Below, one piece after another: positions 25,096 to 45,224 of a stretch of 49,689 nt of DNA. A program made the position numbers and the translations under genes. Origin of the DNA: Desulfobacteraceae bacterium (GTDB taxonomy: Bacteria > Desulfobacterota > Desulfobacteria > Desulfobacterales > Desulfobacteraceae); assembly GCA_024226935.1 (NCBI GenBank), contig JAAELK010000213.1:1-49689 (forward strand), read 5' to 3'. The notes beneath the pieces are model-generated. The model did not search any database. It was not told the origin of the DNA and was given only the letters and a program-made list of their open reading frames with translations. The first letter of the stretch is position 1, and the number at the start of each line of letters is the position of its first letter.

Positions 25096-27264
25096 ATGAT
25101 CAATAAACTATTTCCTTTTTTGGTATGGCTTAAGGGCTATAACAAAGAAAAAATGAGTGCCGATGTTATTGCCGGGATCACAGTGGCCATGGTTCTGATT
25201 CCTCAATCCATGGCATATGCCCAGCTCGCAGGACTTCCTGCGTACTACGGCCTGTATGCAGCATTTTTGCCCCCGATGGTGGCATCCTTATTCGGATCAA
25301 GTCGCCAGCTGGCAACAGGACCTGTTGCCATAGTTTCGCTGATGTCGGCAGCTTCTCTGGAACCACTTGCCACGGCCGGAGGCTCCCAGTTTATTGCTTA
25401 TTCCATTATTCTTGCGTTAACGGTAGGGTGCTTCCAGCTTTTCCTGGGTGTTTTCAAACTAGGGCTGGTAGTTAACCTGCTTTCCCATCCCGTTGTCAAC
25501 GGATTTACCAATGCGGCTGCCATCGTTATAGCATCCTCCCAGTTTTCAAAACTTTTCGGCGTTTATGTTGACAAGGCCCCCCACCATTACCAAACCATCA
25601 TTAATGTCTGCAAGGCAGCCATACACCACACCCATTTACCCACCCTGGGCATAGGAATTCTGGCAATTGTCATCATGGCTACCTTAAAAAAGGTAAACCC
25701 TAAAATACCCAATGTGCTGGTGGCGGTGGCCGTAACCGTCCTGATTTCCAAATTCACAGGCTTTAACAACGACCAATTCATTCCCCTTGAAAATATCAAG
25801 GATACCCAGATTGTCAAAACAATTCACGCATTCAATACCGATGTCAATACAATAAAAAAGCTATCAACTCTCAGGGCAACTCTTAACAACAAATTAAACG
25901 AAATTACGGCCGACGCCAAAGAACACAATATCCATATTGCCTCTGAAAAACAGCTAAAAATTGAGCATGACCTTGCCCTTATAAACGCCAGAATAGACAA
26001 GACAAAGGGTGCTGCCCATATCAAGCGAGAAAACCTGAGAATGATCCATTTTTTCACTGGAAAAACCGCCAAGGGCACACCAGTATTTTATACAGAGACC
26101 ACACTCCCCAAAACTTTTAAAGGCGATGAATCCATTTGGCGAATCAAGGTCACAAATAAGCCTTTAAACCTGGAAAACCTCAAGATGATTGGTGCCGGGG
26201 CTGTCGTAGGTGAAATCCCCAAGGGTTTTAAAATAGGTATCCCAAAAGCACCTGAAAACACCTCCTATTTTGCGGCCTTTATCCAATTACTTCCCTTTGC
26301 GGTTATTATTTCCCTCCTAGGATTCATGGAAGCCATTGCAATTGCCAAATCCATGGCTGCCAAAACAGGACAAAAGCTGGACCCAAACCAGGAACTGATC
26401 GGCCAGGGACTTGCCAACATAGTCGGTTCCTTCGGCCACAGCTATACAGTATCAGGATCTTTTTCCCGATCAGCTGTTAATCTCCAGGCAAATGGCGTCA
26501 CGGGGATATCATCGGTTGTCACCAGCATCATGGTTGCCATCACCCTCTTGTTTTTAACTCCTCTTTTGTACTATCTGCCACAATCTGTTCTGGCAGCGGT
26601 TATCATGATGGCCGTCATCGGACTCATTAACACCTCCGGGTTTGTCCATGCCTGGAAGGCAAAACGCTCCGAAGGCATCATCTCCATCATCACCTTTTTT
26701 ACCACCCTCTATTTTGCCCCCCATCTTGAGGACGGCATAATGGTGGGAGTTGGACTCACCTTCGCCCTTTTCATCTACAAACACCTGCGTCCACGAGTGG
26801 CACTACTTTCAAAAGGCGAAGATGATACCTTAAGAGATGCAATTGGTGCCGGACTTAAAGAATGCGACCATATTGCAGTAGTCCGGTTTGATGGATCACT
26901 TATCTTTGCCAATGCCACCTATCTTGAAGACAAGGTTCTACAATATATTGCCGAAAAACCCGATCTTCGACATGTGGTAATTGCATCCAAGGGAATCAAC
27001 GATATCGATGCGTCCGGTGAAGATGCCATTTCTATTCTGATCGATACCGTGAGGGGAAGCGGCAGGAAAATTGCGTTCTGCGGGTTAAAAGAAGAGGTCC
27101 TTGCTGTAATGGAAAGAACCCACCTCATCGACAAGCTGGGAAGAGAAAATATTTATATCAATACACGGGCTGCACTTGAGTCCATATATCAACAGATCCA
27201 TTCCAAAGGCGGGTGTGGTCATTGTCCGTTGAAAAATTATATGCCAGCTCAAATCAGAAGTTAA
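25096..27264 (+). CDS. SulP-family anion permease with STAS domain and large insertion
   Basis: Inorganic anion transporter (sulfate, bicarbonate or similar) of 722 residues, well above the usual 550-600. The start DVIAGITVAMVLIPQSMAYA and GLYAAFLPPMVASLFGSSRQ are diagnostic. An extra hydrophilic stretch of about 140 residues (about 222-365) rich in Lys, Asn and Ile interrupts the membrane domain just before the conserved VGEIPKGF segment (371). A STAS domain (about 575-700) follows. The C-terminus carries a CGHC motif (Cys707, Cys710) in a Gly-rich tail. Transcribed alone, with its own promoter and terminator. In a sulfate reducer sulfate is a likely substrate, but bicarbonate cannot be excluded. 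Confidence 0.93.
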   Translation: MINKLFPFLVWLKGYNKEKMSADVIAGITVAMVLIPQSMAYAQLAGLPAYYGLYAAFLPPMVASLFGSSRQLATGPVAIVSLMSAASLEPLATAGGSQFIAYSIILALTVGCFQLFLGVFKLGLVVNLLSHPVVNGFTNAAAIVIASSQFSKLFGVYVDKAPHHYQTIINVCKAAIHHTHLPTLGIGILAIVIMATLKKVNPKIPNVLVAVAVTVLISKFTGFNNDQFIPLENIKDTQIVKTIHAFNTDVNTIKKLSTLRATLNNKLNEITADAKEHNIHIASEKQLKIEHDLALINARIDKTKGAAHIKRENLRMIHFFTGKTAKGTPVFYTETTLPKTFKGDESIWRIKVTNKPLNLENLKMIGAGAVVGEIPKGFKIGIPKAPENTSYFAAFIQLLPFAVIISLLGFMEAIAIAKSMAAKTGQKLDPNQELIGQGLANIVGSFGHSYTVSGSFSRSAVNLQANGVTGISSVVTSIMVAITLLFLTPLLYYLPQSVLAAVIMMAVIGLINTSGFVHAWKAKRSEGIISIITFFTTLYFAPHLEDGIMVGVGLTFALFIYKHLRPRVALLSKGEDDTLRDAIGAGLKECDHIAVVRFDGSLIFANATYLEDKVLQYIAEKPDLRHVVIASKGINDIDASGEDAISILIDTVRGSGRKIAFCGLKEEVLAVMERTHLIDKLGRENIYINTRAALESIYQQIHSKGGCGHCPLKNYMPAQIRS

Positions 27265-27375: not shown

Positions 27376-28953
27376 TCAGGAAGAAAAGATAGAATTTTCT
27401 GGAAAATTGATGATGGGAAAACTAAGGGTAAAACAAGCCCCCCGGCCCTCCCGGCTTTCAACGGTAATATTCCCTCCGTGCTTGGCAATAATCCCCTGGG
27501 ATACACTTAATCCCAGGCCGGTACCCTTGCCCTTGGATTTTGTGGTAAAAAACGGATCAAAAACAAAGGGCAGCAGATCCTTTGGAATTCCTTCTCCATG
27601 ATCAGCCACACTTACCTTGACCGAATTTGCTTTGTCCCCGAGGCTTCCTGTCACCTGTATTTTATCGCCTTTTATTGAGGCATCCATGGCATTTAAAAGC
27701 AGATTAATAAAAACCTGCTGAAGTTTCTGGGCATCCCCGTGTATCTTTGGAATTTTTTTTGCACACCGAAGATCAACCTGAACACCTGAAAGTCGGATCT
27801 GACTTTCCAGAAGGCGCAAAGTGTCTTTCAGCAGGATCGATAGATCAACAGATTCCATGGTGGAGGCACTCTCCCTTGCAAAATCCAGAAGATTGCGGAT
27901 AATTTTTTTTGATCGATCTGTTTCTGCTGCAATATCCCCGAGCATCTCAATTTTTTCCTCCTTGGACAGGTCATTATAATCTTCTAAAAGCATATGAACA
28001 GTCAACATGATATTATTCAAAGGGTTATTGATTTCATGGGCCACACCTGCGGTTAGCGTTCCAACCGCTTTTATTTTGTGATCTTGGATCATAACAGCAT
28101 CACGCAGATCAAGTTTTTTCAGCATATCATTAATTGATGTTAAAAGACCGGTAAATTCGTCACGAACTTTTTGCCGAAGGATAATAGGCCGAAAATCCCC
28201 GGAAGAAACCCGCTTGGCATGGATTGTAATTTGTTTGAAGGTTGAATAAAGCCTGATCACAAGCAGATAGGAATTGATGGCGAGAAAAACCAGCAAGATC
28301 AAAAAAGAGTAAACATAGATATATTGGAACCTGAACAAGGTTTTCTCAAGATTTGCTTTTTCAAAGGCAGCCATGAGCTGGGCAGAAGTCAGGATATCTC
28401 TACCAAAGCCCCGCAATTTTAATTCATCTTCTTTTGAAAAAGATTTGATACTTAATCGATTCTTTCCTTTTGTTTCAAGCAGATATAATTGTTCAAGAAG
28501 AGTTTTATAGGCCAAGATTTTATCAGGAATTTTCTGTAGTGCCTGTTTCCCTCCCAAGAGCTTTGAAAACTCTTCCGACTCTTTTATGAAAATAGATTCC
28601 GCCATATGAATGTTTTCCAGGGCATCGTCAAGATTGGTACCATATAAAAAATAATTTTTTTCATACCGCCTTGCCTGTTGAATTTCCAGGGAAAAATCAT
28701 TCACAAACCCCAAAAACTTCATCTGTTTTTGTACCCGATTATTATTTAATATCAATATCAATATCATGACCAAGGCAAAGAAAAAAACCAATATAGTACC
28801 CAGATAGATCTGATCTCTTATACTGAAATGCCTGAAGAAAAAAAAAGTTTTCCCATCCTTGCTTAAGTGCGACCCATGATCAAATTGACCTGCTTGCCTC
28901 GATCCATTATCATCTTTTTTAATTTTCGAGATTGGTGGGTGGGGTCCAGGCAT
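27376..28953 (-). CDS. membrane sensor histidine kinase with helical periplasmic domain
   Basis: A 525-residue sensor kinase. An unusual Gly/Pro/Lys-rich cytoplasmic tail of about 45 residues precedes the first membrane helix (about 50-70). Next come an all-helical periplasmic region (about 71-200, like CHASE3/HBM four-helix bundles) and a second helix (about 205-230). A HAMP-like linker, the phosphorylated His306 in [12 protein letters not shown] and an intact HATPase domain follow (N-box NLLLNAMDAS, then VADHGEGIPKDLLPFVFDPF and GKGTGLGLS). It is last in the minus-strand transporter operon, four bases after the receiver gene. It probably phosphorylates that receiver and/or the NtrC-type regulator at 33425-34774. 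Confidence 0.93.
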   Translation of the reverse strand: MPGPHPPISKIKKDDNGSRQAGQFDHGSHLSKDGKTFFFFRHFSIRDQIYLGTILVFFFALVMILILILNNNRVQKQMKFLGFVNDFSLEIQQARRYEKNYFLYGTNLDDALENIHMAESIFIKESEEFSKLLGGKQALQKIPDKILAYKTLLEQLYLLETKGKNRLSIKSFSKEDELKLRGFGRDILTSAQLMAAFEKANLEKTLFRFQYIYVYSFLILLVFLAINSYLLVIRLYSTFKQITIHAKRVSSGDFRPIILRQKVRDEFTGLLTSINDMLKKLDLRDAVMIQDHKIKAVGTLTAGVAHEINNPLNNIMLTVHMLLEDYNDLSKEEKIEMLGDIAAETDRSKKIIRNLLDFARESASTMESVDLSILLKDTLRLLESQIRLSGVQVDLRCAKKIPKIHGDAQKLQQVFINLLLNAMDASIKGDKIQVTGSLGDKANSVKVSVADHGEGIPKDLLPFVFDPFFTTKSKGKGTGLGLSVSQGIIAKHGGNITVESREGRGACFTLSFPIINFPENSIFSS

Positions 28954-28956
28954 TTT

Positions 28957-29367
28957 TTATCCTCCGACCTTTTTATCATCAAATTGTATTGGAGCTCCCA
29001 AAGCTTTGGCCGCCCTTGCAATAACCGCTTTAAGATCATCGGGCTTGAAAGGTTTTGCAATAAAATCAAAAGCGCCCTTTTCCATGGCTTCCCTGGCAAG
29101 AGAGATCATTGCGTGACCTGTAATCATAATAATTTTGGTTCTGGGTGATTTTTTTCGAACCAAATCCAATACCTGCATCCCGTCCACCCCATCCATATAA
29201 ATATCTGTCACAACTATATCAAACTCTTTTTCCTGCATTCGTTTTATGGCAAGGGCAGAATCTTGAAACACCTCCACGGCACAACCAATTTTTCCAAGGG
29301 CAGGTTTCAGACGTTTTCCAACTATGACTTCATCATCCAATAAAAGAATTTCCAACGGTTTGGACAT
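28957..29367 (-). CDS. single-domain response regulator receiver
   Basis: A CheY-like receiver of 136 residues without an output domain. DDE near the N-terminus, the phosphoacceptor Asp in IVVTDIYMDGVDG, the Thr of MITGHA and the Lys of FIAKPFKPDD are all present. The ATG at 29367 is chosen because AAGGAG lies upstream. An earlier in-frame start would add 11 lysine-rich residues. Placed between a CK-like gene and the histidine kinase, it may relay phosphate between them or act by protein contact. Confidence 0.92.
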   Translation of the reverse strand: MSKPLEILLLDDEVIVGKRLKPALGKIGCAVEVFQDSALAIKRMQEKEFDIVVTDIYMDGVDGMQVLDLVRKKSPRTKIIMITGHAMISLAREAMEKGAFDFIAKPFKPDDLKAVIARAAKALGAPIQFDDKKVGG

Positions 29368-29444
29368 TATAATCTCCTTTTTCTTCTTTGCTTTCAGCAC
29401 CAGCTCTTTTCCAGTTTATCAACACATAAAACCCAAGGGGCAAA

Positions 29445-30266
29445 TCAACGAAAAATTGTGGCTGCCTCGGTTATTATATCCTTATTCCAACGAACCTCCA
29501 GATATCTGATTCCTTCGATACGGCCGGCAATTTCTTTAATGGTCTCAATTTTTTTTGATTTTTCCCGTTTCATTGAACTTGTTGTCACGACAACCGTACC
29601 GTCCTGTACATGAACATGGATATCCGTCAAGGATTTCAAGAGGGTATTTTTCACTCTGGCCCCAAGGAGCTGGTCCGCCATTTTTTTTTTCGAATAGGTC
29701 ATGGCCGTAAATCTTGAATACCCCATTGTCATTGACAGGGTATCCACCACCTCATCAACCTGGATCTGATCCAAATTGATCACCATATCATACAATCCCG
29801 GGTCTGCCTCTTTTCTGTTGAAAGCCGCCATGGACCACTTTTCTCTATTTCGTTCCTGCTGGGCAATATGTTTTTCCATTTTATCCGGGGCCATTGAAAA
29901 CTGACCAGATTGAGAAACTGAACCATACCCGCCAATCAACCGGACCTTCAGAACATGGGATATAACCATCACATAGAGATGTGCTGCCAACCCCCAACAG
30001 ACACAACGATCTTCCAAAAGCTGTTCCAAAACTTCAAGCTCAACACAGGAAAGGTAATAGTGCCAGGTTTTTGCCGGCATTAGCTTCAAGATAGAGGGAG
30101 TTATATTCATCGCTTCGCTTATCTTTTTTATTTCAAGCCTATGCCTGGCAGCAATTTTATTGAAAAACTGTTCGTTAAGTGTTGCAAATGAGAGCTTCTG
30201 GGCTATTTTTTTTCCAATTTCTTTTTCCAACTCCTTATTTTCCGATGATAAAATAAGTATAGACAT
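29445..30266 (-). CDS. cytidylate kinase-like protein, degenerate P-loop, paralogue 2
   Basis: A 273-residue member of the cytidylate kinase-like family (Cytidylate_kin2 type). The first strand MSILILSS is followed by ENKELEKEIGKKIAQKL where the phosphate-binding loop should be, so the Walker A motif is lost. Later family features persist: WGLAAHLYVMV, a VLKVRL strand, the REKW and RKEADPGLYDMVINL segments. The last 60 residues (DIHVHVQDGTVVVTT onwards, to IEGIRYLEVRW) resemble a BON-like domain. AAAAGGAAA precedes the ATG. Part of the transporter operon after paralogue 1. It probably does not phosphorylate CMP. A sensor or adaptor role is inferred. Confidence 0.8.
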   Translation of the reverse strand: MSILILSSENKELEKEIGKKIAQKLSFATLNEQFFNKIAARHRLEIKKISEAMNITPSILKLMPAKTWHYYLSCVELEVLEQLLEDRCVCWGLAAHLYVMVISHVLKVRLIGGYGSVSQSGQFSMAPDKMEKHIAQQERNREKWSMAAFNRKEADPGLYDMVINLDQIQVDEVVDTLSMTMGYSRFTAMTYSKKKMADQLLGARVKNTLLKSLTDIHVHVQDGTVVVTTSSMKREKSKKIETIKEIAGRIEGIRYLEVRWNKDIITEAATIFR

Positions 30267-30300: not shown

Positions 30301-31110
30301 CTAAACAGCATTAGCAGGAACAGGTACTCCCGTATGCACCTCGAGATTATGGATGCCAGAATTTTCTTTTTGAAAAGTATTTATGGTTCTCTTAAATTTG
30401 GCCGAATGCGCTACTTTTTCCCCTGCATAAACCAGGAGATTCCCATATTCACAAGTAATCTTGACATCAAAAAAACTTGCTATCAGTGATGCCTTTAAAC
30501 CACAGGCAAAAGACAAATCCTTAACTTGTCTGATACGATCATGGGTCCATTCAAAGGCTTTTCTGGAAGCACATTGACAAATAAAATCAACGGCATCTTC
30601 TTTGGAAAGTTTATCAATACTGATAACCATATCGTAAAGAGAACTGTCATTGGGATCTGCATGATATATTTTTCTAGTCCATTTTTTTCGATGGGCATCA
30701 TCCTCTATAATCCTTGCCCGGGCCATCTGCTCGGAAAAACCGTCTTGCATTTTCCTGGCCACACGACTTTCCAGTTTAGCCGTAATTCTAACTTTAAGGA
30801 CATGGGGCAAAAGACTTAAAAGAATATGCCCTGCCAGTCCATGGTAAACGATATTTCCATCGGCTACCATCTCGGTCAGTGTCGCCCTGAGATAGGCAAG
30901 ATAAACTAATTTTGTGTAGCTATACCGCTCAAAAACCCCGGGTGCATCATGAATTGCCTTTTCCAAAGTTTCTTGGGGAACATGAAACCTACCGCTTGCT
31001 TTCAACAGCAAATCCCGGCTGATAATATCGTATCCTAGTCTTTCAGCTACACCTTCAGCAACTGCTTTTCCCAGGGAAAATGATCCCCGAGAGATGGTAA
31101 TAATAGCCAT
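30301..31110 (-). CDS. cytidylate kinase-like protein, near-intact P-loop, paralogue 1
   Basis: A 269-residue cytidylate kinase-like protein. The N-terminal SRGSFSLGKAVAEGVAERLG keeps GxxxxGK but has Ala where Ser/Thr is standard, so Mg-ATP binding may be weakened. HGLAGHILL, the VRITA strand, an Arg-rich lid and SSLYDMVISIDKLSKEDAVD match the family's later motifs. A BON-like tail (about 205-262, with FDVKITCEYGNLLVYAGE) ends the protein. It follows the SLC13 transporter gene by 17 bases and precedes paralogue 2. Of the three CK-like proteins in this window it is the most likely to bind nucleotide. Function unknown. Confidence 0.8.
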   Translation of the reverse strand: MAIITISRGSFSLGKAVAEGVAERLGYDIISRDLLLKASGRFHVPQETLEKAIHDAPGVFERYSYTKLVYLAYLRATLTEMVADGNIVYHGLAGHILLSLLPHVLKVRITAKLESRVARKMQDGFSEQMARARIIEDDAHRKKWTRKIYHADPNDSSLYDMVISIDKLSKEDAVDFICQCASRKAFEWTHDRIRQVKDLSFACGLKASLIASFFDVKITCEYGNLLVYAGEKVAHSAKFKRTINTFQKENSGIHNLEVHTGVPVPANAV

Positions 31111-31127: not shown

Positions 31128-32942
31128 TTAGTAAAACAAATATATCATGGTAATCATAACTACCAGGAAAAGAGCACTGATCACAGATCCTGCCTTGATA
31201 AAATCAATGGTCCGATATCGACCCGGCCCCATGTAAAGGGCATTGACCTGATGGGTGGGAAGAATAAAGGAATTACTCGTCGCCAACCCCACCACCAAAG
31301 CTGCCAGTCTCGGATCTGTATGGGTAACAAGAGCTATGTTCACCACGAGGGGAACCAGCAACACAGTCGCTCCGACATTGGAAATTACCAGGGTAAACAA
31401 GGTGGAAAGTATCCCTATGACTATCAACAAAACAATCGGTTGTACATCACCGATAATATGAAGAATAAAAGCCGCTATCCAGGCAGCAGTACCGGTTTTT
31501 TGAGTGGCAATACCCAAGGGGATCAAACCGGCCAGCAAAAAAATGGTACGCCAATCAACAGACTGATAGGCCTCGTCAATACTTAATACCTTAGTGATTA
31601 TCATACCAAGGGCTCCTGTCATTAAAGCAACAGACAAGTGAACATGAAATCCCATGACCATTGTCAAAGCCAGAACCAACCAGCCGCCTGCCCATAACGC
31701 TTTTTCCGGACGTGTATCTTCTAAATCCTGGGGCAAACTAAACAACAGTCCGCCCTCCTGGTTCAGGGCTTCCAGACGTTTCCATGTTCCATAAAAACTG
31801 ATAACATCCCCGGTCCGAAGGATAATATCATCCAGTTTAGCCCGGTAGACATCATCCTGATGGTGTATTGACAAAGGAGTAACCCTGAAACGATCATTAA
31901 AATTGTTCTTCCCCAAAGGCCGTCCCACAAAAGATGACCTGGGAGAAACAACCGCTTCCACAATACCGGAATGGGCAGGGTCAAACTCTTTATCATAGTG
32001 TTCAACAGTCTTTTTAAGCAGCATGCCTTCCTTGGCGGCCATTCTTTCCACATTTTTTTTATCACCCCATACCACTAGGTCAACACCGGACCTGATCTCG
32101 ATGTGGGGAGCAGGAGACATGGTTTTAATATCCGGGGGCTCCGTCAATGCAAGAATACTGACCAAATAACGAAGATGAATATCTCCAACCCTTACTATAT
32201 CCCGATAATCCATAAAATCATCGGAAGTTGTCAATTCATAAAAGCACGGATGCTGTGTTCCCTGTTCACAGGAGCTCTCCAAAGCATGTGCATGTTCATC
32301 ATCCTTATTTTCTGATACATCCCCCTGGGGAAGAATAAATTTTCCCAGGAAAACAAAACACAAAATACCACTTGCAACCAAAGCAAGGCCAATGGGCGTG
32401 ACATCAAACAGGCCAAAGGGTTTCAAATCAAACGGCACCAAAAGATCATTTAGAAGAATCAGGGGGGAACATCCAACCAGGGTAACCGTCCCACCAAGAA
32501 TGGCACTGAACCCAACCGGCATCAACAGACGACTCAGCGGTATTTTTTGTATTTTACTGATCCGCTGAATGGCCGGCAAAAAAAGCGCCGCAGCACCGAT
32601 ATTTTGCATAAAACTTGAGATTACCGCCACGGTACATGAGATGGCTATAATAATCCTGGAAGAACTTGTCCCGGCAATGGCTAAGACAGGTTTGACCAAT
32701 TTATTTATCATTCCTGTCTTATCAAGACCGGCACCGATGATAATAACAGCAATAATTGAGACAACAGCATTACTGCTCAATCCCATAAAGGCCTCTTTCG
32801 GTGTTACCAGATGGAGAAGCGGTAAAGCGACCATCATGAGGATGGCCACCACATCGACTCTTATCCACTCCACAATAAAAAGAAAAATTGCAAAGCTTAT
32901 CATCACCATCACTAAAATCATGTCCGGGGTCAATTGATCCAT
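31128..32942 (-). CDS. SLC13-family permease with two RCK_C (TrkA-C) domains
   Basis: Ion-transporter superfamily permease of 604 residues. Two blocks of membrane helices (about 5-200 and 415-604) flank a soluble centre with two RCK_C-type domains (about 240-310, with IEIRSGVDLVVWGD, and about 320-400, with RLDDII-like and GDVISFYGTW segments). This layout is typical of SLC13/CitT-related sulfate or dicarboxylate permeases of the SAC1/SdiA kind. MPVGFSAILGGTVTLVGCSP is the conserved helical hairpin. First gene of the sigma-54 operon, with the ribosome site GGAGAG. It leads CK-like, CK-like, receiver and kinase genes. Substrate is probably an inorganic or organic anion. Confidence 0.9.
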   Translation of the reverse strand: MDQLTPDMILVMVMISFAIFLFIVEWIRVDVVAILMMVALPLLHLVTPKEAFMGLSSNAVVSIIAVIIIGAGLDKTGMINKLVKPVLAIAGTSSSRIIIAISCTVAVISSFMQNIGAAALFLPAIQRISKIQKIPLSRLLMPVGFSAILGGTVTLVGCSPLILLNDLLVPFDLKPFGLFDVTPIGLALVASGILCFVFLGKFILPQGDVSENKDDEHAHALESSCEQGTQHPCFYELTTSDDFMDYRDIVRVGDIHLRYLVSILALTEPPDIKTMSPAPHIEIRSGVDLVVWGDKKNVERMAAKEGMLLKKTVEHYDKEFDPAHSGIVEAVVSPRSSFVGRPLGKNNFNDRFRVTPLSIHHQDDVYRAKLDDIILRTGDVISFYGTWKRLEALNQEGGLLFSLPQDLEDTRPEKALWAGGWLVLALTMVMGFHVHLSVALMTGALGMIITKVLSIDEAYQSVDWRTIFLLAGLIPLGIATQKTGTAAWIAAFILHIIGDVQPIVLLIVIGILSTLFTLVISNVGATVLLVPLVVNIALVTHTDPRLAALVVGLATSNSFILPTHQVNALYMGPGRYRTIDFIKAGSVISALFLVVMITMIYLFY

Positions 32943-36526: not shown

Positions 36527-37921
36527 ATGATTAAACTTGCCCATCCGCATATCCGTGCCCTCTTAAAAAAAAATATAGACTTTACCCATATGATCGATGA
36601 GATTCCTCTGGGAATTCTCGTACTTGATTGCGACCGCAGAGTAGTCTATCTGAACAGGTTTTTTCAAGCCCTTTCCGGAGTGTCCATAAACAGGGCTTAC
36701 GTAATTGAGTGCCGCAATATATTGAGAAGCTCGGCATGTATCACCAATTGCCCGGTCCTTACCATGGACAAAGAAAACCGATCCATCTCCTGCGAAAACG
36801 ACATGATCAATATGGACCGGCAAAAACTGCCCATCAGGACGACCGTGGCCCCTTTGCTGGATACCGACGGTAAAACTGCCGGATACATTGAAACCATAGA
36901 AGATTTACGGGTGATTGAAACCCTTGACCAGAAAAAAAGTGTGGCCTATAGCTTTGCAAAGATCATCGGCAGGAGTACAAAGATGGAAAAAATATTCCAG
37001 ACTCTGCCCATTCTTGCCCAAAGCGATACTTCCGTTCTGATCACAGGAGAAACCGGAACCGGAAAAGATCTGGTAGCTGAAGCAATTCACCAAACTTCTG
37101 AACGTGCCCCGGGGCCGTTTGTAAAAATTAATTGTGGAGCTCTTCCGGAAACCCTTCTGGAATCTGAAATATTCGGACACCAAAAAGGCGCATTTACAGG
37201 AGCCGTGGAAAACAAACCCGGACGGTTTAAATTAGCACACAACGGCACCATTTTTTTAACGGAAATAGGTGACCTGCCTCTTTCTCTCCAGGTGAAACTG
37301 TTAACCTTTCTGGATGACAAGATTATTTTCCCCTTGGGCAGCACCAAAGGATTTCATGTCAATGTAAGAATCATTGCAGCAACCCATAGAAATCTTGAAC
37401 AGATGGTGAACGATGGTCAATTCCGGAAAGATCTTCTTTTCAGGTTAAATGTGGCAAGGATCCACCTGCCGCCCCTAAGGGAAAGAGAAGGAGATATCAG
37501 ACTGTTACTGGATTATTTTTTCATCAGCTATACCCGACAGCTGGATAAAAAATTAAAGGGATTTTCCAAAACCGCCCTGATGAGACTTATGAACTATGGG
37601 TATGAAGGTAACATCCGAGAATTAAAAAATATTGTGGAGTACGCAGTCAATGTGACAAACGGCAAATTGATAGAAGTGGACAATCTGCCATCTTATCTAT
37701 TCGATCCCGTAACCTTGTTCCGGGAATCCAAACCATCCGAGCCGCCCCTGATAGACAGCCCCAGAATAAAAGAAACTGAAACATGGGCTTCCATCCAACG
37801 TAAAATGATATTGGATGCACTCAAACAAACAAAGGGCAAAAAAAGTGAAGCGGCCAAAATCCTGGGATGGGGCAGAAGCACCCTGTGGAGAAAAATAAAA
37901 CAATATAAAATTGACTCCTGA
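36527..37921 (+). CDS. PAS-domain sigma-54 activator with altered Walker B
   Basis: A 464-residue enhancer-binding protein without a receiver domain. An N-terminal PAS domain (about 20-125) holds a cysteine cluster (Cys62, 71, 75, 89) in the CRNILRSSACITNCPVL region, suggestive of a redox or metal sensor. The AAA+ domain has Walker A GETGTGKD (174-181) and GAFTGA (221-226). Its Walker B reads IFLTEIGDL, with Thr245 replacing the usual Asp. A Fis-type HTH (GKKSEAAKILGWGRSTLWRK) ends it. The ATG lacks a strong ribosome site. First of a plus-strand run of signalling genes. It is the best candidate to act on the sigma-54 promoter at 41374. Confidence 0.92.
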   Translation: MIKLAHPHIRALLKKNIDFTHMIDEIPLGILVLDCDRRVVYLNRFFQALSGVSINRAYVIECRNILRSSACITNCPVLTMDKENRSISCENDMINMDRQKLPIRTTVAPLLDTDGKTAGYIETIEDLRVIETLDQKKSVAYSFAKIIGRSTKMEKIFQTLPILAQSDTSVLITGETGTGKDLVAEAIHQTSERAPGPFVKINCGALPETLLESEIFGHQKGAFTGAVENKPGRFKLAHNGTIFLTEIGDLPLSLQVKLLTFLDDKIIFPLGSTKGFHVNVRIIAATHRNLEQMVNDGQFRKDLLFRLNVARIHLPPLREREGDIRLLLDYFFISYTRQLDKKLKGFSKTALMRLMNYGYEGNIRELKNIVEYAVNVTNGKLIEVDNLPSYLFDPVTLFRESKPSEPPLIDSPRIKETETWASIQRKMILDALKQTKGKKSEAAKILGWGRSTLWRKIKQYKIDS

Positions 37922-38030: not shown

Positions 38031-38112
38031 GCAACGCCTTGCCCCAACCTTAGGACAATGGTTTGTTTCTTGTAACACCTTGTCCCAACCTTAGGGAGTA
38101 CTCTGTTTCTTA
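38031..38112 (+). repeat. two tandem imperfect 41-bp repeats before the NifX-like gene
   Basis: CCTTGCCCCAACCTTAGG (38037-38054) and CCTTGTCCCAACCTTAGG (38078-38095) recur with a 41-base period, and the following GTTTCTT recurs too. Each unit contains a TTGYCC...GGACAA-like dyad. The second unit ends at the ATG of the NifX-like gene, so the copies lie in its leader or promoter. Roughly four helical turns separate them, suiting regulator binding on one face of the DNA. Confidence 0.6.
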
Positions 38113-38471
38113 TGATAGATAAAATAACCATCACAATCCACCAGGATCAAATCGCACCGCGCTTTGACCTGACCACTGAAATTTTAATCATTCTAATCTC
38201 AAGCAATTTAGTCGTTGAAGAAAAAAAATCCATTGTCCTTCCCAGATCTTCTGCCGATGATCTGTGTCACCTTCTAATATCGGAAAATATCAACACATTA
38301 ATCTGTGGTGCCATGGAAGATGAGTATTATCAATTCCTGAAATGGAAACAGATCAATATATTTGATTCAGTTATGGGAAGCTGGGCCACAGCATTTAAAA
38401 ACTGGCAGGAAAACACCCTGAACCCCGGTGATATTTTCTCGGACAGAATGATAGAGGGAAAACTTGTTTAA
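38112..38471 (+). CDS. NifX/NifB-type dinitrogenase cofactor domain protein
   Basis: A 119-residue single-domain protein of the dinitrogenase iron-molybdenum cofactor biosynthesis family (NifX, NafY, MTH1175-like). It has the IAPRFDLTTEILII entry strand and INTLICGAMEDEYYQFLKWK middle, with INIFDSVMGSWATAF near the end. Small members bind metal clusters or cofactors, and many occur outside nitrogen fixation. Here it leads a histidine kinase gene that it overlaps by eight bases, implying co-translation and perhaps a metal or cofactor signal. GGGAG lies 13 bases before the ATG, a loose fit. Confidence 0.8.
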   Translation: MIDKITITIHQDQIAPRFDLTTEILIILISSNLVVEEKKSIVLPRSSADDLCHLLISENINTLICGAMEDEYYQFLKWKQINIFDSVMGSWATAFKNWQENTLNPGDIFSDRMIEGKLV

Positions 38472-40191
38472 AAAACTGATAAATTTTATTTTTCTTTTAG
38501 ATGAGAGACCCATCAATCGCTACAAATCCCTGAATCGAAACATTGTCATCATCATGCTTTTGATTACCATTATCCCCTTAACCTGTATGGTCATCATCAA
38601 TAACTTTCAGTTTAAGACCCACCTGAGAGATCAAATCATGGATCCTCTCTATTCCATGGCGGAAAAAAGCCGGCATACATTTGAGCTTTTCATGGATCAA
38701 CAGCTCTCCATCATACGGTTTATCTCAAACACCTATAGTTTGGCAAACCTGGGCAACGAACTAACAATTCAAAAAATACTGACCTCATTAAAAAAAGAGC
38801 ACTACGGCTTTGTAGATATAGGACTGATTGACCCCAAGGGAGACCTGGTCAGTTATGCCGGTCCCTATTCCCTGCTGGGCAAAAACTATTCACAACAAAC
38901 TGCTTTCCAAGAAACACGAGTCAAAGGACAATATATCAGCAATGTATTTCTTGGGCACAGAAAATACCCGCACATTGTCATCGCAGTTGAGATAGTCAAA
39001 AATGACGGGCAAAGCTGGGTGTTAAGAGCAACCGTTGATACAAGCTTTTTTGACAAACTTATTTCCGGCATGGGGCTTGAACGAAACAGCGATGTATTTC
39101 TTGTAAACAGTAAAGGAATTTTTCAGACCAACTCTCTTTATTACGGCGACACCCTTGAAAAGTGCCCACTGGAACTGCCCGGTAAAAGCTTTAAATCCCA
39201 GGGTATCGAAACAAAAGACAACAAAAACCAGGACATTATAATAGTCAGCGCAGGTTTTGCCATTGCAGACTATATCCTGGTGATCATCCAACCCCAGTCT
39301 GTGGCCCTCAAATCATGGCATGCCCTGAAAACTAAAATGGGTATCATTTTTTTTATCAGCCTGGCTATTATACTCTTTACCATTATCAAAATGACGGGAA
39401 TACTGATAAAAAGGATTAAGACCTCCGATGAACACCGGGAGAATGTCCTGACCGAACTTCAACATGCACAAAAATTATCCTCCATCGGAAGATTGGCAGC
39501 CGGAATAGCCCATGAAATTAACAACCCCCTTGCCATTATCAATGAAAAAGCAGGGTTGATGATGGATCTTATTGATCTTTCAAAAGATTTTGATCAAAAA
39601 TCAAAATTTCACGAACTCACCCTATCAATCACAACATCGGTTGACAGGTGCAGAAAAATCACCCACAGACTCCTTGGGTTTTCAAAACGGATCGATTTTA
39701 AAATCGAACCCATCCAAATTAATACCATTATCCATGAAGTAATTGAATTTTTAGAAAAAGATATTTTCTACCGGAGACTTGAAATAAATTTAAATCTTTC
39801 TGATACACTAAAACCAATTTTTTCGGATCACGGTCAGATTCAACAGGTATTGCTCAATCTTTTAACCAACGCCTTTGCGGCAGTTCAAGATGGATTGGGA
39901 CGGGTTGAAATAAAAACAACAAATCATGAAAACAAAGGAATAAGCATTAAAATTACAGATAACGGATGCGGTATTCCAAAGAAAATTATTGAAAACATCT
40001 TTGACCCGTTTTTCACAACCAAGAAAGAAAAAGGCACCGGTCTCGGCCTGTCAATAAGCTACGGGATCATAACAAAATTGGGTGGAGAAATCTTTGTTGA
40101 TAGTAAACTTGGGGAAGGTTCTATTTTTACAATCATCCTTCCTGAAAAACCAAATGAAATGGAAATAAAAAATGGAAATCCAGAAAATTAA
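38464..40191 (+). CDS. Cache-type membrane sensor histidine kinase
   Basis: A 575-residue sensor kinase starting at TTG (38464) inside the end of the NifX-like gene. First membrane helix about 27-46. The periplasmic region about 50-290 has a PDC/Cache pattern ([20 protein letters not shown] and [15 protein letters not shown]), a fold that binds small ligands such as organic acids. Second helix about 293-316, then a DHp with His350 in [11 protein letters not shown]. The HATPase domain is intact ([10 protein letters not shown], then [20 protein letters not shown] and GTGLGLSIS). The following receiver gene overlaps its end by 20 bases. Confidence 0.94.
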
Positions 40192-40564
40192 AATCCTCCT
40201 GATCGATGATGAAGAAGAATTTGTTACGACCCTTGCCGAACGCTTAGAATTAAGGGGATACCTTTGTCAGACCGCAGGAGACGGTGAATCAGGCATTAGT
40301 AAAATCAGCCACCAGACCTTTGACATAGCGATTCTTGATCTTATGATGCCGGGACTGAACGGCTTGAATACCCTACGACAAATAAAAATGATCGATAAAG
40401 AGTTGCCTGTTATACTGCTGACAGGACACGGTTCCACCAAAGACGGTATGGAAGGTATGCGCATCGGGGCCTTTGATTTTCTCATGAAGCCCCTGGACAT
40501 CTCTACACTGATTGATAAAATCAAATCGGCAGTGGATTCAAAATCAACCCAGGAGGAACCATGA
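40172..40564 (+). CDS. single-domain response regulator receiver
   Basis: A CheY-like receiver of 130 residues with the acidic pair in LLIDDEEEF, phosphoacceptor in AILDLMMPGLNG, Thr in LLTGHGS and Lys in FLMKPLD. No output domain. It overlaps the upstream kinase gene and the downstream kinase-like gene (ATGA), so the three are translationally coupled. Its sequence (DDEEEFVTTLAERLELRGY) is closely similar to the receivers at 42293-42678 and 42726-43154, suggesting local duplication. Confidence 0.93.
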   Translation: MEIQKIKILLIDDEEEFVTTLAERLELRGYLCQTAGDGESGISKISHQTFDIAILDLMMPGLNGLNTLRQIKMIDKELPVILLTGHGSTKDGMEGMRIGAFDFLMKPLDISTLIDKIKSAVDSKSTQEEP

Positions 40565-41226
40565 AAACCCGCGATGATGCTACGGCTTTTTTTGGCCAGG
40601 TAACGGCAAGTACCACCCATGAAATCCAGAATGTACTTGCCATCATCAAAGAAAACGCCGGGCTTATGGAAGATATTCTCCTGATGAACCCCGATAATTT
40701 GCCAACTCTTCTGGAGAACCTTAAACGATGCATCGGCAAAACAAAAGAACAAGCTTACAGAGGAGTTGATCTCACTTCAGGACTCAATGCATTTGCCCAC
40801 ACAACAGATACTTTTTTGGCCCCCGTCAATGTATACGAAATCATCAAAAACCTGATATTTCTTACCAAAAGATTTTTTTTGCAAAAAGGGATAAAGCTGG
40901 CACTGACAGACTGTAACTGCCCCCCTTCCATCATGACAGATCCGGTTCTTTTCCAGAAAATTTTATGGATGTGCCTTAAATGCCTTACAGAAACCATGGA
41001 TCTTAACACAAATATAATTATAACTATTTTAACCCCGGATACAGGAAATAAGATTGAATTTCGTCCCGATGATCCAACTCTTGACAATGGGTCTTTCAAC
41101 CAAAGATTATCAAGGTCGGCCAAGTGGGATGACTTAGAAAGGACCTGCAAGCAAATAAACCTGACACCAAGACTCATAACCCAGACATTGCCGGGTATCA
41201 GCATTGGGTTGGATCAAAAGTCCTGA
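40561..41226 (+). CDS. degenerate histidine-kinase-like protein lacking ATP-binding boxes
   Basis: A 221-residue cytoplasmic protein. The N-terminal 60 residues match a DHp helix with His20 in THEIQNVLAIIKENAGL, clearly related to the DHp of the kinase two genes upstream ([16 protein letters not shown]). The rest resembles a HATPase domain in outline, but the N-box asparagine is gone (ILWMCLKCLTETMD), no DxGxG box is present and the second Gly box is absent. It cannot be expected to autophosphorylate. It may be a phosphatase, a phosphotransfer partner or a decoy. Strong ribosome site AGGAGG. Its last codons overlap the first enhancer-like repeat at 41209. Confidence 0.8.
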   Translation: MKTRDDATAFFGQVTASTTHEIQNVLAIIKENAGLMEDILLMNPDNLPTLLENLKRCIGKTKEQAYRGVDLTSGLNAFAHTTDTFLAPVNVYEIIKNLIFLTKRFFLQKGIKLALTDCNCPPSIMTDPVLFQKILWMCLKCLTETMDLNTNIIITILTPDTGNKIEFRPDDPTLDNGSFNQRLSRSAKWDDLERTCKQINLTPRLITQTLPGISIGLDQKS

Positions 41227-41291
41227 CAGCATTGAGTTGGGCCAAAAGCCCTGACACCATTTCGTTTCAATTTGGCCCAAAAACCTTCACA
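41209..41291 (+). promoter_or_regulatory. enhancer-like direct repeats TTGGnCCAAAAG
   Basis: TTGGATCAAAAGTCCTGACA (41209-41228), TTGGGCCAAAAGCCCTGACA (41237-41256) and a weaker copy at 41272-41291 form three direct repeats at 28- and 35-base spacing, 85 to 165 bases upstream of a sigma-54 promoter. The cores contain local dyads such as GGGC..GCCC. They probably bind an enhancer-binding protein. The PAS-type activator at 36527 is the nearest candidate. Confidence 0.6.
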
Positions 41292-41389: not shown

Positions 41390-41463
41390 GTAAGTAATAT
41401 ATACTGCTAATATATTGGTTCAAGGGCAGAATGAAGTTAACCATAAAAAATATGGAGGCTGTT

Positions 41464-42678
41464 GTGTCAATTTTAACCATAACAAATGGATTATACACAA
41501 ATTCAGAAGAGATCATCCAGATCCTTGGTAAAAAATTCAATTATCGCATCCTGACAGATGCTGATCTTATCGAAAAAACCCATCACGACCATGATATCAG
41601 ACTGGCAACACTCCAAAAAGTATTAGATAGCAGACCAATTGCCTTTAATGACTTCACCCATGAAAAAGAAAGATGCATATCTGCCCTTAAAAAAACTCTC
41701 TCGGACTTTGTTAGTGAGGGCAATTGTATTTTCCATGGGGCCCTGGGCCATCTGATACCCAAAACCATCACCCATGTCATGCGAGTACTGGTTATTGCAG
41801 AAAAAAATCAACGAATTAAAAATGCAGAGGACAAAAAAGGATTATCAAAAAAAGAAGCCCTCAAAAAAATTGAACTTTCTGATAAACACGCATTTTTATG
41901 GACTGCATCCCTGTTTAATGAAAAAGCATGGAACAAATCGCTTTATGATATTGTCATCCCTTCGGACAAAATTGACACAAAAGAAGCGGTTGAACTTATT
42001 TCAAAATATCTTAATAAACTTCTTTTTACCCATAAAGATCTTATAAAACAGGAAGCTTTGGACTTCAAATTAATTGCTGATATTGAATTGGCCCTGGACA
42101 ATATAGGACAAGGACTTTTGGTGGAATCCCACAAAGGGGATGTTGTGGTAACCATCGATAAAAAAGTGATGCTGCTCACAAAATTCCAGCAAAAAATCAT
42201 TCAGACCACAAAAACCATCCCGGGTGTTAACTCAGTGGAAACAAAAATCGGACAAAATTACTACAAGGGCAATATAATCCATAACTATGAATTTGAAACC
42301 CCCCTAAGAATTCTTCTGGTGGACGATGAAAAAGAATTTGTCCAGACATTATCAGAGCGCCTCAAAATGCGGCAATTCACAAATGAAATAGTCTATAACG
42401 GCCAGGCGGCCTTGAATTTCACCGATGAAGAAGATCCTGAAGTCATCCTCCTAGACTTGAAAATGCCCGGAATTGACGGCTTTGAAGTATTAAAAACAAT
42501 CAAAAAAACAAAGCCCCATATTGAAGTCATCATTCTCACCGGTCACGGTTCCAAAGCAGATAAAGCAACCTGTATGGACCTGGGTGCATTTGCTTATCTC
42601 CAGAAACCTGCTGATATTGATTTAATTACCCAGACCATGAAAAAGGCCTATGAAAAAATAGAAGCTCAAAAAGAATAA
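41464..42678 (+). CDS. cytidylate kinase-like / BON-like / receiver fusion protein
   Basis: A 404-residue fusion. Residues 1-195 are cytidylate-kinase-like: VSILTITNGLYTNSEEIIQI (no Walker A left), FHGALGHLIP, a VMRVLVIAE strand and the conserved KSLYDIVIPSDKIDTKEAVE. Residues about 205-265 resemble the BON-like tail of its paralogues (GDVVVTIDKK and IPGVNSVETKIG). Residues 282-402 are a full receiver domain with LLVDDEKEF, phosphoacceptor Asp331 in LLDLKMPGIDG, LTGHGS and LQKPAD. The GTG at 41464 with GGAGG five bases upstream is preferred over the ATG at 41431, because it matches the N-termini of the paralogues. First gene of the sigma-54 DASS operon. Confidence 0.85.
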   Translation: MSILTITNGLYTNSEEIIQILGKKFNYRILTDADLIEKTHHDHDIRLATLQKVLDSRPIAFNDFTHEKERCISALKKTLSDFVSEGNCIFHGALGHLIPKTITHVMRVLVIAEKNQRIKNAEDKKGLSKKEALKKIELSDKHAFLWTASLFNEKAWNKSLYDIVIPSDKIDTKEAVELISKYLNKLLFTHKDLIKQEALDFKLIADIELALDNIGQGLLVESHKGDVVVTIDKKVMLLTKFQQKIIQTTKTIPGVNSVETKIGQNYYKGNIIHNYEFETPLRILLVDDEKEFVQTLSERLKMRQFTNEIVYNGQAALNFTDEEDPEVILLDLKMPGIDGFEVLKTIKKTKPHIEVIILTGHGSKADKATCMDLGAFAYLQKPADIDLITQTMKKAYEKIEAQKE

Positions 42679-42725: not shown

Positions 42726-43154
42726 ATGAAAATAAAGGTATTGATAGCGGATGATGAAAAAGAATTCATCGAAACTTTGGCCCAACGACTTGAGATAAGA
42801 GATTTTGCTGTCACCACAGTAGGGTCTGGATCTGCGGCCATTGAAATAGTTGAAAAAATTAATTTTGATGTCATAATCCTTGACGTTCAGATGCCTGAAA
42901 TAAACGGTATTGATGCATTAAAAAAGATAAAAAAGATAACCCCCCTGACTCCGGTGATCATGCTGACAGGGGAAGCAACCGTAGAAAATGCCATCCAGGG
43001 GATGAAACTGGGAGCATTTGATTTTCTGATTAAACCCACCCAGACAACTCTCCTTGCTGAAAAAATCAAACAAGCACATGCCCATAAGCATGAACATGAA
43101 GAACGTATTCGTCAGGCTGAAATAGAAAATATCTTACGGACCCGAGGCTGGTAG
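42726..43154 (+). CDS. single-domain response regulator receiver
   Basis: A 142-residue CheY-like receiver: LIADDEKEF, phosphoacceptor in VIILDVQMPEING, Thr in MLTGEA and Lys in FLIKPTQ, with a short His/Lys/Glu-rich tail (AHAHKHEHEERI) that may be coiled or bind metal. No output domain. It lies between the CK-REC fusion and the DASS transporter gene with short gaps on both sides, probably co-transcribed. AAAAGGG precedes the ATG. Confidence 0.92.
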   Translation: MKIKVLIADDEKEFIETLAQRLEIRDFAVTTVGSGSAAIEIVEKINFDVIILDVQMPEINGIDALKKIKKITPLTPVIMLTGEATVENAIQGMKLGAFDFLIKPTQTTLLAEKIKQAHAHKHEHEERIRQAEIENILRTRGW

Positions 43155-43167
43155 GAGCAAAAATAAC

Positions 43168-44640
43168 ATGCCAACACAAACCATCTTTTTATATAAAACC
43201 CATATTGACTGGAAGCGGATACTTTTTCTTTTAACCGGGGTTGCCCTGTTTGTGATAGTAAATTTTTCCCCACCCTGGCCCGATGCCATCGATCCCACCG
43301 GAAAGCATTTTATCTTAAGTAAAGAGGCAAAAGGAGCCCTGGCTGTTTTTCTCCTGGGAGGAACCTGGTGGGTATTTGAAGTGGTGCCCATTGGAATCAC
43401 AAGCCTGACCATCGGTGTATTACAGGTTTTATTCATGGTCCGAACGGCAGATGCTGCATTCAAAGACTTTATGACACCATCGGTACTGTTTATTTTTGCC
43501 TCTCTTGTCATAGGGATTGTCTTTACCAAAACGGGACTAACCAGACGACTGGCCTATAAAATGCTCATGATTGTCGGAGAGAAAACCAGTATGATTTATC
43601 TGGGATGTTTTGTGGTAACGGCCGCATTGACCCATATAATGGCCCATACCGCCGTGGCAGCCACCATGTATCCCCTTCTGGTGACCATCTATGGAATGTA
43701 TACAGATGATGATAAACCCACCAATTTTGGAAAGGGCCTGTTCATGGGAATGGCTTTTGTGGCCGGAGCCGGCAGTATTATCACCCTTCTGGGCGCCGCC
43801 AGAGGAGCCGTGGCCCTCGGCTTTTATAAAGATATAATAGGAAAGGACGTTTCATTCTTTGAACTAAGTTACTACATGTTCCCCATTGGCTGGATCATGG
43901 TCTTTATATTATGGGGATTTTTCATGTTTTTTTTCAAACCTGAAAAAAACAATATCCCGGGACTCAGGAGAAAGGCTGCATCATTGAGCAAAGCCATGGG
44001 TAAAATCACAAAAAATGAAATCCTTGCCGCCACCATCATTTTCACCTGTATTCTTACAATGTCCCTTCGATCCTTTGTCCCCTTGCTAAATACCCTGGAC
44101 AAAAATGCCATCATCCTTCTATCAACCATCCTGTTTTTTATCCTTCGCATCCTTGACATCAGGGATCTGGAATCCATTCCATGGAATATCATGCTGCTTT
44201 TCGGCGGGGCCATGAGCATCGGGTTCTGCCTTTGGCAAACCGGGGCTGCTGAATGGCTTGCCATCAAATGGCTCACCCTTTTCCACCAGTCCCACTGGTT
44301 TGTTTTTGTTATGAGCATCTCCTTTTTTGTCATGATAATGACCAATTTTATCATGAATGTTGCCGCCATCGCTATTTCCCTTCCAGTAGCCCTTGTCATC
44401 GCACCCTATCTCGGGGTGGCACCGGAGGTCATTCTTTTTTCAGCCCTTGTCACTGCCGGCATGCCCTTTCTACTGCTTGTCGGTGCTGCCCCCAATGCCA
44501 TCGCCTATGATTCAGGTCAATTTACAACAGGTGAATTTTTTAAATTTGGCATTCCGGCCAGTGGAATATTGATGATAATCGTTGCCATTGCAATAAAGGT
44601 CATATGGCCGCTGATGGGAATGCCCATATTAATAAATTAA
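43168..44640 (+). CDS. DASS/SLC13-family sodium:anion symporter
   Basis: Polytopic transporter of 490 residues with about eleven hydrophobic segments. WWVFEVVPIGITSL matches the family entry helix, followed by ALTHIMAHTAVAATMYPLL and the second inverted repeat with LFGGAMSIGFCLWQTGAAEW and MTNFIMNVAAIAISLPVAL. DASS carriers move dicarboxylates or sulfate with sodium. Some anion-binding Ser-Asn-Thr motifs appear altered (HTAVA in place of the usual SNTA-type loop), so the substrate may be unusual. AGGAG precedes the start. It is the second SLC13-type protein in the window and, like the first, sits with CK-like and receiver genes. Confidence 0.9.
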   Translation: MPTQTIFLYKTHIDWKRILFLLTGVALFVIVNFSPPWPDAIDPTGKHFILSKEAKGALAVFLLGGTWWVFEVVPIGITSLTIGVLQVLFMVRTADAAFKDFMTPSVLFIFASLVIGIVFTKTGLTRRLAYKMLMIVGEKTSMIYLGCFVVTAALTHIMAHTAVAATMYPLLVTIYGMYTDDDKPTNFGKGLFMGMAFVAGAGSIITLLGAARGAVALGFYKDIIGKDVSFFELSYYMFPIGWIMVFILWGFFMFFFKPEKNNIPGLRRKAASLSKAMGKITKNEILAATIIFTCILTMSLRSFVPLLNTLDKNAIILLSTILFFILRILDIRDLESIPWNIMLLFGGAMSIGFCLWQTGAAEWLAIKWLTLFHQSHWFVFVMSISFFVMIMTNFIMNVAAIAISLPVALVIAPYLGVAPEVILFSALVTAGMPFLLLVGAAPNAIAYDSGQFTTGEFFKFGIPASGILMIIVAIAIKVIWPLMGMPILIN

Positions 44641-44660
44641 AAATCATAAGGAATAGTACA

Positions 44661-45224
44661 ATGAAAGTAAAACTTGTTAAGGAATTGATGATTCCATTAT
44701 CAGAATATGCCACGGTCCACGAAGACGACACCCTGAAAATTGCTATCAAAACCCTTCAGGATTCCCAGAAACTCAATATTTCTACCCACTATATGCACAG
44801 AGCCGTTCTTGTATATGACAAAGACAAGAATATTGTAGGAAAGATGAGTCCTTTGGATATTTTAAAATCCCTTGAACCCAAATACCATCAAGTAGGGCAC
44901 CCGGACCAGATGAGAAAGATGCGCCTGTCCAGGTTTGGGCTGAGCAATGAATTCATGTCTTCTATTTTTGAACAATATTGCCTCTGGGATGAAAGCTGCG
45001 AAGAGCTTATAAAAACCGCCTCAAAACTCAAAGTTAAAGAGGTCATGTACTCTCTGGATGAAGGAGAATATGTAAATGAAACCGCCAGCATTGCAGAAGC
45101 CATTCATCAACTGATTGTCGGCCACCATCAATCCCTGCTCGTATCAAGGAACGATAAAGTAATAGGTATCTTAAGGCTGTCGGACCTATTTAAATTGGTC
45201 TGTGACATCATGACAGATCAATAA
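44661..45224 (+). CDS. CBS domain pair protein
   Basis: A 187-residue cytoplasmic protein with two CBS motifs: one near residues 5-70 (VKELMIPLSEYATVHEDDTL and RAVLVYDKDKNIVGKMSPLD) and one near 120-187 (VKEVMYSLDEGEYVNETASI and SLLVSRNDKVIGILRLSDLF). CBS pairs sense adenine nucleotides and often gate the transporter next to them. The ATG at 44661 has AAGGA upstream. An earlier in-frame start would overlap the transporter gene and lacks a ribosome site. Last gene of the DASS operon, so it is likely the transporter's regulator. Confidence 0.88.
   Translation: MKVKLVKELMIPLSEYATVHEDDTLKIAIKTLQDSQKLNISTHYMHRAVLVYDKDKNIVGKMSPLDILKSLEPKYHQVGHPDQMRKMRLSRFGLSNEFMSSIFEQYCLWDESCEELIKTASKLKVKEVMYSLDEGEYVNETASIAEAIHQLIVGHHQSLLVSRNDKVIGILRLSDLFKLVCDIMTDQ

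Follow-up and report, generated by a model that had tools for sequence, protein, structure and literature searches.

A widespread fusion of cytidylate-kinase-like, BON-like and receiver domains recurs beside anion transporters and probably helps to control anion uptake

The window (the whole stretch of 49,689 nucleotides of Desulfobacteraceae DNA analysed here) encodes a protein in which a cytidylate-kinase (CK)-like domain, a divergent BON-like domain and a complete receiver are joined in a single frame (Table 1). The fusion probably helps to control anion uptake, since the gene for a SulP- or SLC13-type transporter nearly always adjoins it in related bacteria. Sequence comparison and structural models together establish the three domains, the loss of the Walker A motif from the CK-like part and the recurrence of a cassette, which comprises a SulP or DASS transporter, the fusion, a histidine kinase, a receiver, a ChpT/Spo0B-like phosphotransferase and a further receiver. 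Domains and cassette are well supported, while the order of the proposed phosphorelay and a direct action on the transporter are what we infer.

Table 1. Features of the window discussed in the text, in order of position.
Feature	Coordinates	Strand	Remarks
SulP permease	25096..27264	+	14 kb from the fusion; SulP is a near neighbour in many other loci
Histidine kinase of the parallel module	27376..28953	-	
Free receiver of the parallel module	28957..29400	-	contact residues IVRA
Stand-alone CK-like paralogue	29445..30266	-	P-loop degenerate too
Stand-alone CK-like paralogue	30301..31110	-	
SLC13-type transporter with TrkA_C	31128..32942	-	head of the parallel unfused module
PAS, sigma-54 activator and HTH	36527..37921	+	recurrent in DASS-type loci
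NifX-like protein	38112..38471	+	PF02579 just under cut-off; recurrent in DASS-type loci
Histidine kinase	38464..40191	+	dCache sensor, HisKA and HATPase_c; likely phosphodonor
Free receiver	40172..40564	+	Spo0F-like position in the proposed relay
Likely ChpT/Spo0B-like histidine phosphotransferase	40561..41226	+	DHp (H20/N24) and CA fold without ATP boxes
Fusion, CK-like/BON-like/receiver	41464..42678	+	404 aa; GTG start, GGAGG upstream
CK-like domain (PF13189)	41464..42018	+	residues 1-185; no Walker A; G92, R117, D140, D162 kept
Divergent BON-like domain	42034..42267	+	residues 191-268; alpha-beta-beta-alpha-beta
Flexible linker	42268..42300	+	residues 269-279; pLDDT <50 in the model
Receiver domain	42304..42675	+	residues 281-404; phosphoacceptor Asp331 at 42454-42456
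Second free receiver	42726..43154	+	142 aa
DASS/SLC13 sodium:anion symporter	43168..44640	+	
CBS-domain protein	44604..45224	+	

Domains of the fusion protein

The frame is open from the GTG at 41464 to a TAA ending at 42678 on the forward strand (404 residues). The longest ORF over the gene begins at an ATG at 41431; the GTG start is preceded immediately on its 5' side by GGAGG and agrees in position with the homologues. An earlier note, made from the sequence alone, had described a continuous frame leading from a CK-like N-terminus through a BON-like stretch into a complete receiver with Asp331, and this was confirmed, with the BON-like part scoring below the Pfam cut-off. A sequencing error joining two genes near codon 280, or a chance join, was ruled out, as the frames of full-length homologues run unbroken across the join. 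Upstream of the fusion, two similar tandem copies of about 28 bases were seen by eye at 41201-41257, at the end of the 40561 gene and just beyond it.

The CK-like fold was recovered by the profile search: PF13189 matched residues 3-168 (E 3.2e-21; 76.7 bits against a cut-off of 28). PF00072 likewise exceeded its cut-off, at residues 283-391 (E 1.2e-27). PF04972 (BON), the third profile that the earlier note had proposed, gave no Pfam match in the window protein (cut-off 27 bits); among the fusion homologues it matched 7 of 36 at E ≤ 1, the best of these (5.7e-4) still lying below the Pfam cut-off. The middle stretch is nevertheless accepted as a divergent BON-like domain. An AlphaFold model built from 36 sequences (mean pLDDT 88, pTM 0.64) places helices at residues 191-211 and 238-250 and strands at 218-223, 226-231 and 257-262, and this order equals the alpha-beta-beta-alpha-beta topology given for BON in the covered part of PMC7806268. 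Furthermore, the genome encodes two stand-alone CK proteins that score as BON above the cut-off (E 4e-11 and 2e-11), and a profile of the stretch aligned to their C-terminal part (hhalign probability 91%). At a pTM of 0.64 the arrangement of the domains relative to one another in the model is uncertain. Fold searches with the whole fusion returned receivers as all of the best 50 matches listed in each, and thus barely probed the CK and BON parts.

By sequence, the fusion is a response regulator, with a PF00072 domain that carries the acidic pair, the phosphoacceptor Asp, the Thr/Ser and the Lys. Across 76 aligned fusions, D287 and D331 are invariant, and D288, T359 (Ser in the remaining sequence) and K381 are each present in 75.

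In the CK-like part, PF13189 matched all 36 homologues at E ≤ 1 (best 1.1e-29). A profile of this part also matched PDB entries 3fdi (E 6e-11) and 3hdt (E 2e-10), which we take to be members of PF13189; both matches are confined to the second half of the domain. These matches, together with the Pfam scores, the model topology and the hhalign alignment, are the grounds for accepting the three-part architecture. The Walker A motif GxxxxGK[ST] was found within the first 36 aligned positions in none of the 76 fusions; a relaxed G..GK is present in five, and the GR motif of a canonical relative from the same genome is replaced in the aligned fusions and stand-alone proteins. The fusions have kept G92 and R117 (76/76 each), D140 (74/76) and D162 (75/76). 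Since Walker A is missing from every fusion, the CK-like part is most likely a pseudokinase, perhaps still with a ligand pocket. An active (d)CMP or NMP kinase is disfavoured on the same count, and a kinase function, as implied by the name used in the earlier note, is probably wrong for this part.

The transporter cassette and its signalling genes

The neighbourhood of the fusion was analysed in 76 full-length examples, from loci L041-L091 and L097-L139 and from the window. L054 and L055 contribute two fusions each, and L001-L040 were excluded, being short stretches from genomes most of which were refetched. The most similar pair reached 94%, under the near-duplicate threshold of 97%, so that no row was dropped. 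At least 5 kb of flanking sequence was available on both sides of 49 fusions, and the other 27 were set aside for flanks of less than 5 kb. ORFs were compared with 18 window proteins, and one was counted as a neighbour of a given type if its best match was to a protein of that type and reached at least 50 bits, a lenient criterion for kinases. The loci are related, and hence do not represent 49 independent cases.

A SulP, DASS or SLC13-TrkA_C transporter was encoded within 6 kb of the fusion in 48 of the 49 well-flanked loci, together with a kinase of the 38464 type in 44, a protein resembling that encoded at 40561 in 37 and a free receiver in 46. In the complete set of 76 the transporter accompanied 70 fusions, the kinase 63 and the phosphotransferase 53. 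By comparison, none of the three transporter types was found in 20 control stretches of 17 kb, roughly evenly spaced in five genomes and not matched to signalling loci, of which three gave a kinase or NtrC-type match. For L130 the transporter match is weak (94 bits) and lies 5.8 kb away, L098 has none of the cassette partners, and the phosphotransferase was missing at the threshold used in 12 of the 49 loci. The earlier note was silent on both the transporter link and the phosphotransferase.

The type of transporter varied over the tree of the fusions. Most of the rows furthest removed in the tree have a SulP gene as neighbour, as do 25 of the 34 in one clade; in the clade to which the window belongs, the neighbour is a DASS gene in 27 of the 37 rows. 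The DASS gene of the window exceeds the cut-off of PF00939 and falls just below that of TIGR00785 (194 bits against 199). Many DASS loci also contain a NifX-like protein, a PAS/sigma-54 activator and a CBS protein; in many SulP-type loci the fetched stretch yielded no sigma-54 activator. The NifX-like protein of the window, which scores 23.5 bits with PF02579 (cut-off 26.3), has counterparts next to the kinase of DASS loci; a connection with nitrogenase is not obvious. The SulP permease at 25096-27264 matches its family in two stretches, as if it carried an insert, and adjoins the parallel module described below.

The kinase at 38464, which the earlier note had put forward as phosphodonor, is a likely one, a kinase of the same type being encoded within 6 kb in 44 of the 49 loci. 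Cache sensors were checked in two kinases, those of the window and of L129. A DHp domain combined with a CA-like domain that lacks ATP boxes is the build of ChpT and Spo0B, and the protein encoded at 40561 is likely to be a phosphotransferase of this kind, as judged from its sequence family and model. In 31 members of its family H20 and N24 are invariant, and HisKA was detected in 27 at E ≤ 0.1, weakly in the window member (0.051); HATPase_c was found in two and HPTransfase in one. The model shows a DHp and a CA-like domain (pLDDT 92.5) and matches histidine kinases in a fold search. The ATP box GxG[LM]G occurs in 0 of 69 phosphotransferases versus 70 of 72 kinases, and DxGxG in three of 69 versus all 72.

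Receivers were compared at the contact positions corresponding to V13, L14, I17 and N21 of RR468, which were changed to re-aim that protein (as named in PDB titles). The set EFTR was found in 68 of 76 fusions, in 26 of 57, 17 of 55 and three of eight free receivers of the three cassette types, and in none of 22 other receivers. The free receivers at 40172 and 42726 are 37 and 38% identical to the fused receiver, compared with 26% for the receiver at 28957, whose contact residues are IVRA. On these grounds the receiver at 28957 is disfavoured as a free version of the fused one. In the 142-residue receiver at 42726-43154 and its homologues, the receiver fold is followed by a conserved C-terminal extension whose last residues are GW. 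Kinase and phosphotransferase both commonly carry I, E and L at positions +8, +11 and +15 from the His; within loci, their contact residues matched no better than chance (33 of 64; shuffle mean 34.4), so that the proposed order of the relay is drawn from anatomy only.

A parallel, unfused module lies elsewhere in the window, in the order NtrC, SLC13-TrkA_C transporter, CK, CK, receiver, histidine kinase. As the earlier note had claimed, its two CK-like paralogues share the CK-like part with the fusion (PF13189, E 1e-14 for 29445-30266 and 1e-33 for 30301-31110). The BON-like part is shared by alignment, both proteins aligning through this region; the BON profile itself gave E 0.14 for the former and no match for the latter. 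The P-loop is lost in 29445 and kept as GSFSLGK in 30301. The free receiver of the module is indeed present, placed directly after 29445 rather than two genes later. Among 20 fetched stretches the module is kept in the five closest relatives (L190-L194, with NtrC undetected in L193), and a sixth (L195) has kept the transporter and the two CK genes. No SLC13-TrkA_C gene was detected in the other 14, among which L199 adjoins a fusion cassette. CK-BON, receiver, kinase and anion transporter thus travel together twice, once in fused form, and the proposal that CK-like proteins work with receivers is better supported than by the fusion alone. What stands of that proposal is the common module, fused and unfused.

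Distribution and history of the fusion

The fusion had been presented in the earlier note as new. It is in fact old and widespread, and includes other phyla according to record titles. Of 58 near genomes, 41 gave full-length matches. In a sample of 297 genomes from across the phylum, 36 had matches at E ≤ 1e-55, one of which is cut by a contig end; both counts include the source genome. Full-length fusions also appear under the record titles Zixiibacteriota, LCP-89, Abyssobacteria, GN15, Myxococcota and Bacteroidetes/Chlorobi. The scan of genome contigs that revealed these returned 49 loci, some with the receiver part only, and a plasmid search gave no match at 1e-30.

A tree of the CK-BON part separates the fusions from six stand-alone proteins (support 100/100), a pattern that fits one fusion event. 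Four receiver-less proteins (L090, L091, L100 and L101, the last two paired on a long branch) lie inside the fusion clade, so that two losses of the receiver are needed. In all four, the CK-BON gene stands directly before a DASS gene, in a cluster without a kinase or phosphotransferase gene. The cluster of L090 and L091 has retained a free receiver; about 4 kb from the receiver-less gene begins another, complete cassette that has a kinase and a phosphotransferase of its own. No receiver remnant was seen by eye after the stop in these two loci, in the three forward frames. Conversely, the receiver part occurs without CK-BON in at least nine loci (L081-L085, L133-L135 and L137), with a kinase beside it in all nine and a DASS gene in eight; upstream of five receiver-only loci, no CK-like reading was seen by eye in the forward frames over 900 bases. 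Two loci (L054, 8570-11044; L055, 7995-10448) each carry two different CK-BON-receiver fusions in tandem, the second of which branches apart with L099, tied to SLC13-TrkA_C transporters.

A proposed relay, its alternatives and known systems

The reading that we favour, with moderate confidence, is that the fusion is a response regulator with a CK2-like pseudo-nucleotide-kinase and BON-like output, which ends a short phosphorelay controlling an anion transporter, most likely one for sulfate. An extracellular anion would be sensed by the histidine kinase (here through a Cache sensor), and phosphate would pass from the kinase to the free receiver, to His20 of the phosphotransferase and then to Asp331 of the fusion. 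Phosphorylation of Asp331 would free or dock the CK-BON module, which would bind the transporter or the nearby membrane and thereby alter transporter activity. Rather than catalyse, the CK pocket may recognize a nucleotide, for example APS or AMP.

This reading is favoured by the company that the fusion keeps, namely the transporter in 48 of 49 loci versus none of 20 controls, with the kinase in 44, the phosphotransferase in 37 and the free receiver in 46. A relay is further favoured by the tendency of EFTR to be common to the fused receiver and the free receivers of the cassette, and by the 40561 family, which retains the H-box, lacks the ATP boxes and models as DHp and CA. The four loci that have lost the fused receiver argue in the same direction, their CK-BON clusters having neither kinase nor phosphotransferase gene, although the second cassette close by in L090 and L091 and the long branch of L100 and L101 limit this argument. 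The SulP locus L129 is informative with respect to the output. None of its five scanned proteins (kinase, two receivers, phosphotransferase and permease) has a DNA-binding domain, and CK-BON is therefore the visible output there. Sulfate is favoured as the anion because sulfate uptake is the function given in PMC11887813, in the parts covered, to a DASS cluster that contains Cache kinases and CBS proteins; the window transporter may carry sulfate, given its family match and that assignment. The 12 loci without a phosphotransferase at threshold count against the favoured reading, as does L098 with no partners at all. So do the loci, at least nine in number, that have the receiver part and no CK-BON, by which the latter is not always needed, and the sigma-54 activators of many DASS-type loci, where the output may be transcriptional. 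Docking at the membrane is weakened by the suggestion, in the part of PMC7806268 covered, that BON domains are not general lipid binders. A bolder form of the same reading, in which the pseudo-nucleotide-kinase/BON effector at the end of the relay directly gates SulP and DASS transporters as a fast post-translational switch of sulfate uptake, its dead pocket reading a pathway nucleotide such as APS, is offered tentatively.

Three other readings were weighed against this one. It is possible, if somewhat doubtful, that CK-BON acts as a metabolite sensor for APS, AMP or another nucleotide of the sulfate pathway and sets the phosphorylation of the receiver, the output passing through other receivers or sigma-54 activators. 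The retention of pocket-side residues despite the loss of the P-loop would suit a sensor. So would the loci that have the receiver and no CK part, which retain the kinase and mostly the transporter, and the sigma-54 activators of many DASS-type loci. Nevertheless, in L090, L091, L100 and L101 the CK-BON gene has persisted directly before DASS despite the loss of the receiver, and many SulP-type loci have no sigma-54 activator detected in the fetched stretch.

That the fusion is an ordinary product of duplication, with CK-BON as a structural passenger and the receiver as a phosphate sink for the kinase of the cassette, is distinctly unlikely: three receivers with similar contact residues do lie side by side, and variants without either half exist, but one old fusion with a conserved CK part has been kept across several phyla, as judged from record titles. 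A CK-like part that is still an enzyme, in effect a receiver-gated kinase that makes or uses a nucleotide messenger, is quite improbable. It would account for the PF13189 match in all 36 homologues (E ≤ 1, best 1.1e-29), for the retention of G92, R117, D140 and D162 in 74 to 76 of 76 fusions, by which the pocket may remain under selection, and for the GxxxxGK-like loop of the stand-alone paralogue 30301. It is opposed by the absence of Walker A from all 76 fusions, the relaxed form in no more than five, and the replacement of the canonical GR motif in aligned fusions and stand-alone proteins.

If the bolder form of the relay reading is true, a pseudo-nucleotide-kinase would constitute a new class of response-regulator output; to our knowledge, it is not among the known ones. 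Dissimilatory sulfate reduction begins with sulfate uptake, and the relay would represent a new way to control a secondary transporter and a fast uptake switch for sulfate reducers. With one unusual effector linking a likely phosphorelay to both SulP and DASS permeases, the recurrent cassette points to proteins on which this can be tested. A literature search found no paper on the combination of CK-like, BON and receiver domains. The term "cytidylate" is absent from the main text of PMC11887813, PF13189 is not mentioned in the main text of PMC7806268, and "cytidylate", "histidine kinase" and "response regulator" have no occurrences in PMC5840216. A response regulator with this output was not found described, and the cluster itself has been described in part.

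Several known systems resemble portions of the cassette. Like ChpT of Caulobacter and the Spo0F/Spo0B/Spo0A relay, it combines a kinase, a lone receiver, a likely DHp phosphotransferase without ATPase activity and a final output receiver; in contrast to them, it would end in a pseudokinase-BON module rather than a DNA-binding domain, and it includes a transporter gene. The fusion resembles the PF13189 family in its family score and in its profile matches to 3fdi and 3hdt over the second half of the domain, and differs from it in lacking Walker A and the GR motif and in bearing a BON-like part and a receiver. With the BON domains of DolP, OsmY and Kbp it shares the alpha-beta-beta-alpha-beta order and a GV..V near the end, whereas its stretch scores below the Pfam cut-off and is joined to a CK-like domain and a receiver. 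At the level of gene organization, the cassette resembles the DASS sulfate-transporter cluster of Desulfobacteraceae published in 2025 (PMC11887813), in which, according to the parts covered, DASS transporters, Cache histidine kinases, response regulators and CBS proteins occur together in sulfate reducers; the window likewise combines a DASS transporter, a Cache kinase, receivers and a CBS protein. The control of sulfate uptake is presented in those parts as a model, with kinase-driven formation of the transporter, CBS proteins and TetR repressors. The kinases, WalR-type regulators, CBS proteins and TetR repressors of that cluster are described there, whereas a phosphotransferase or relay, as proposed for the present cassette, is absent from the parts covered.
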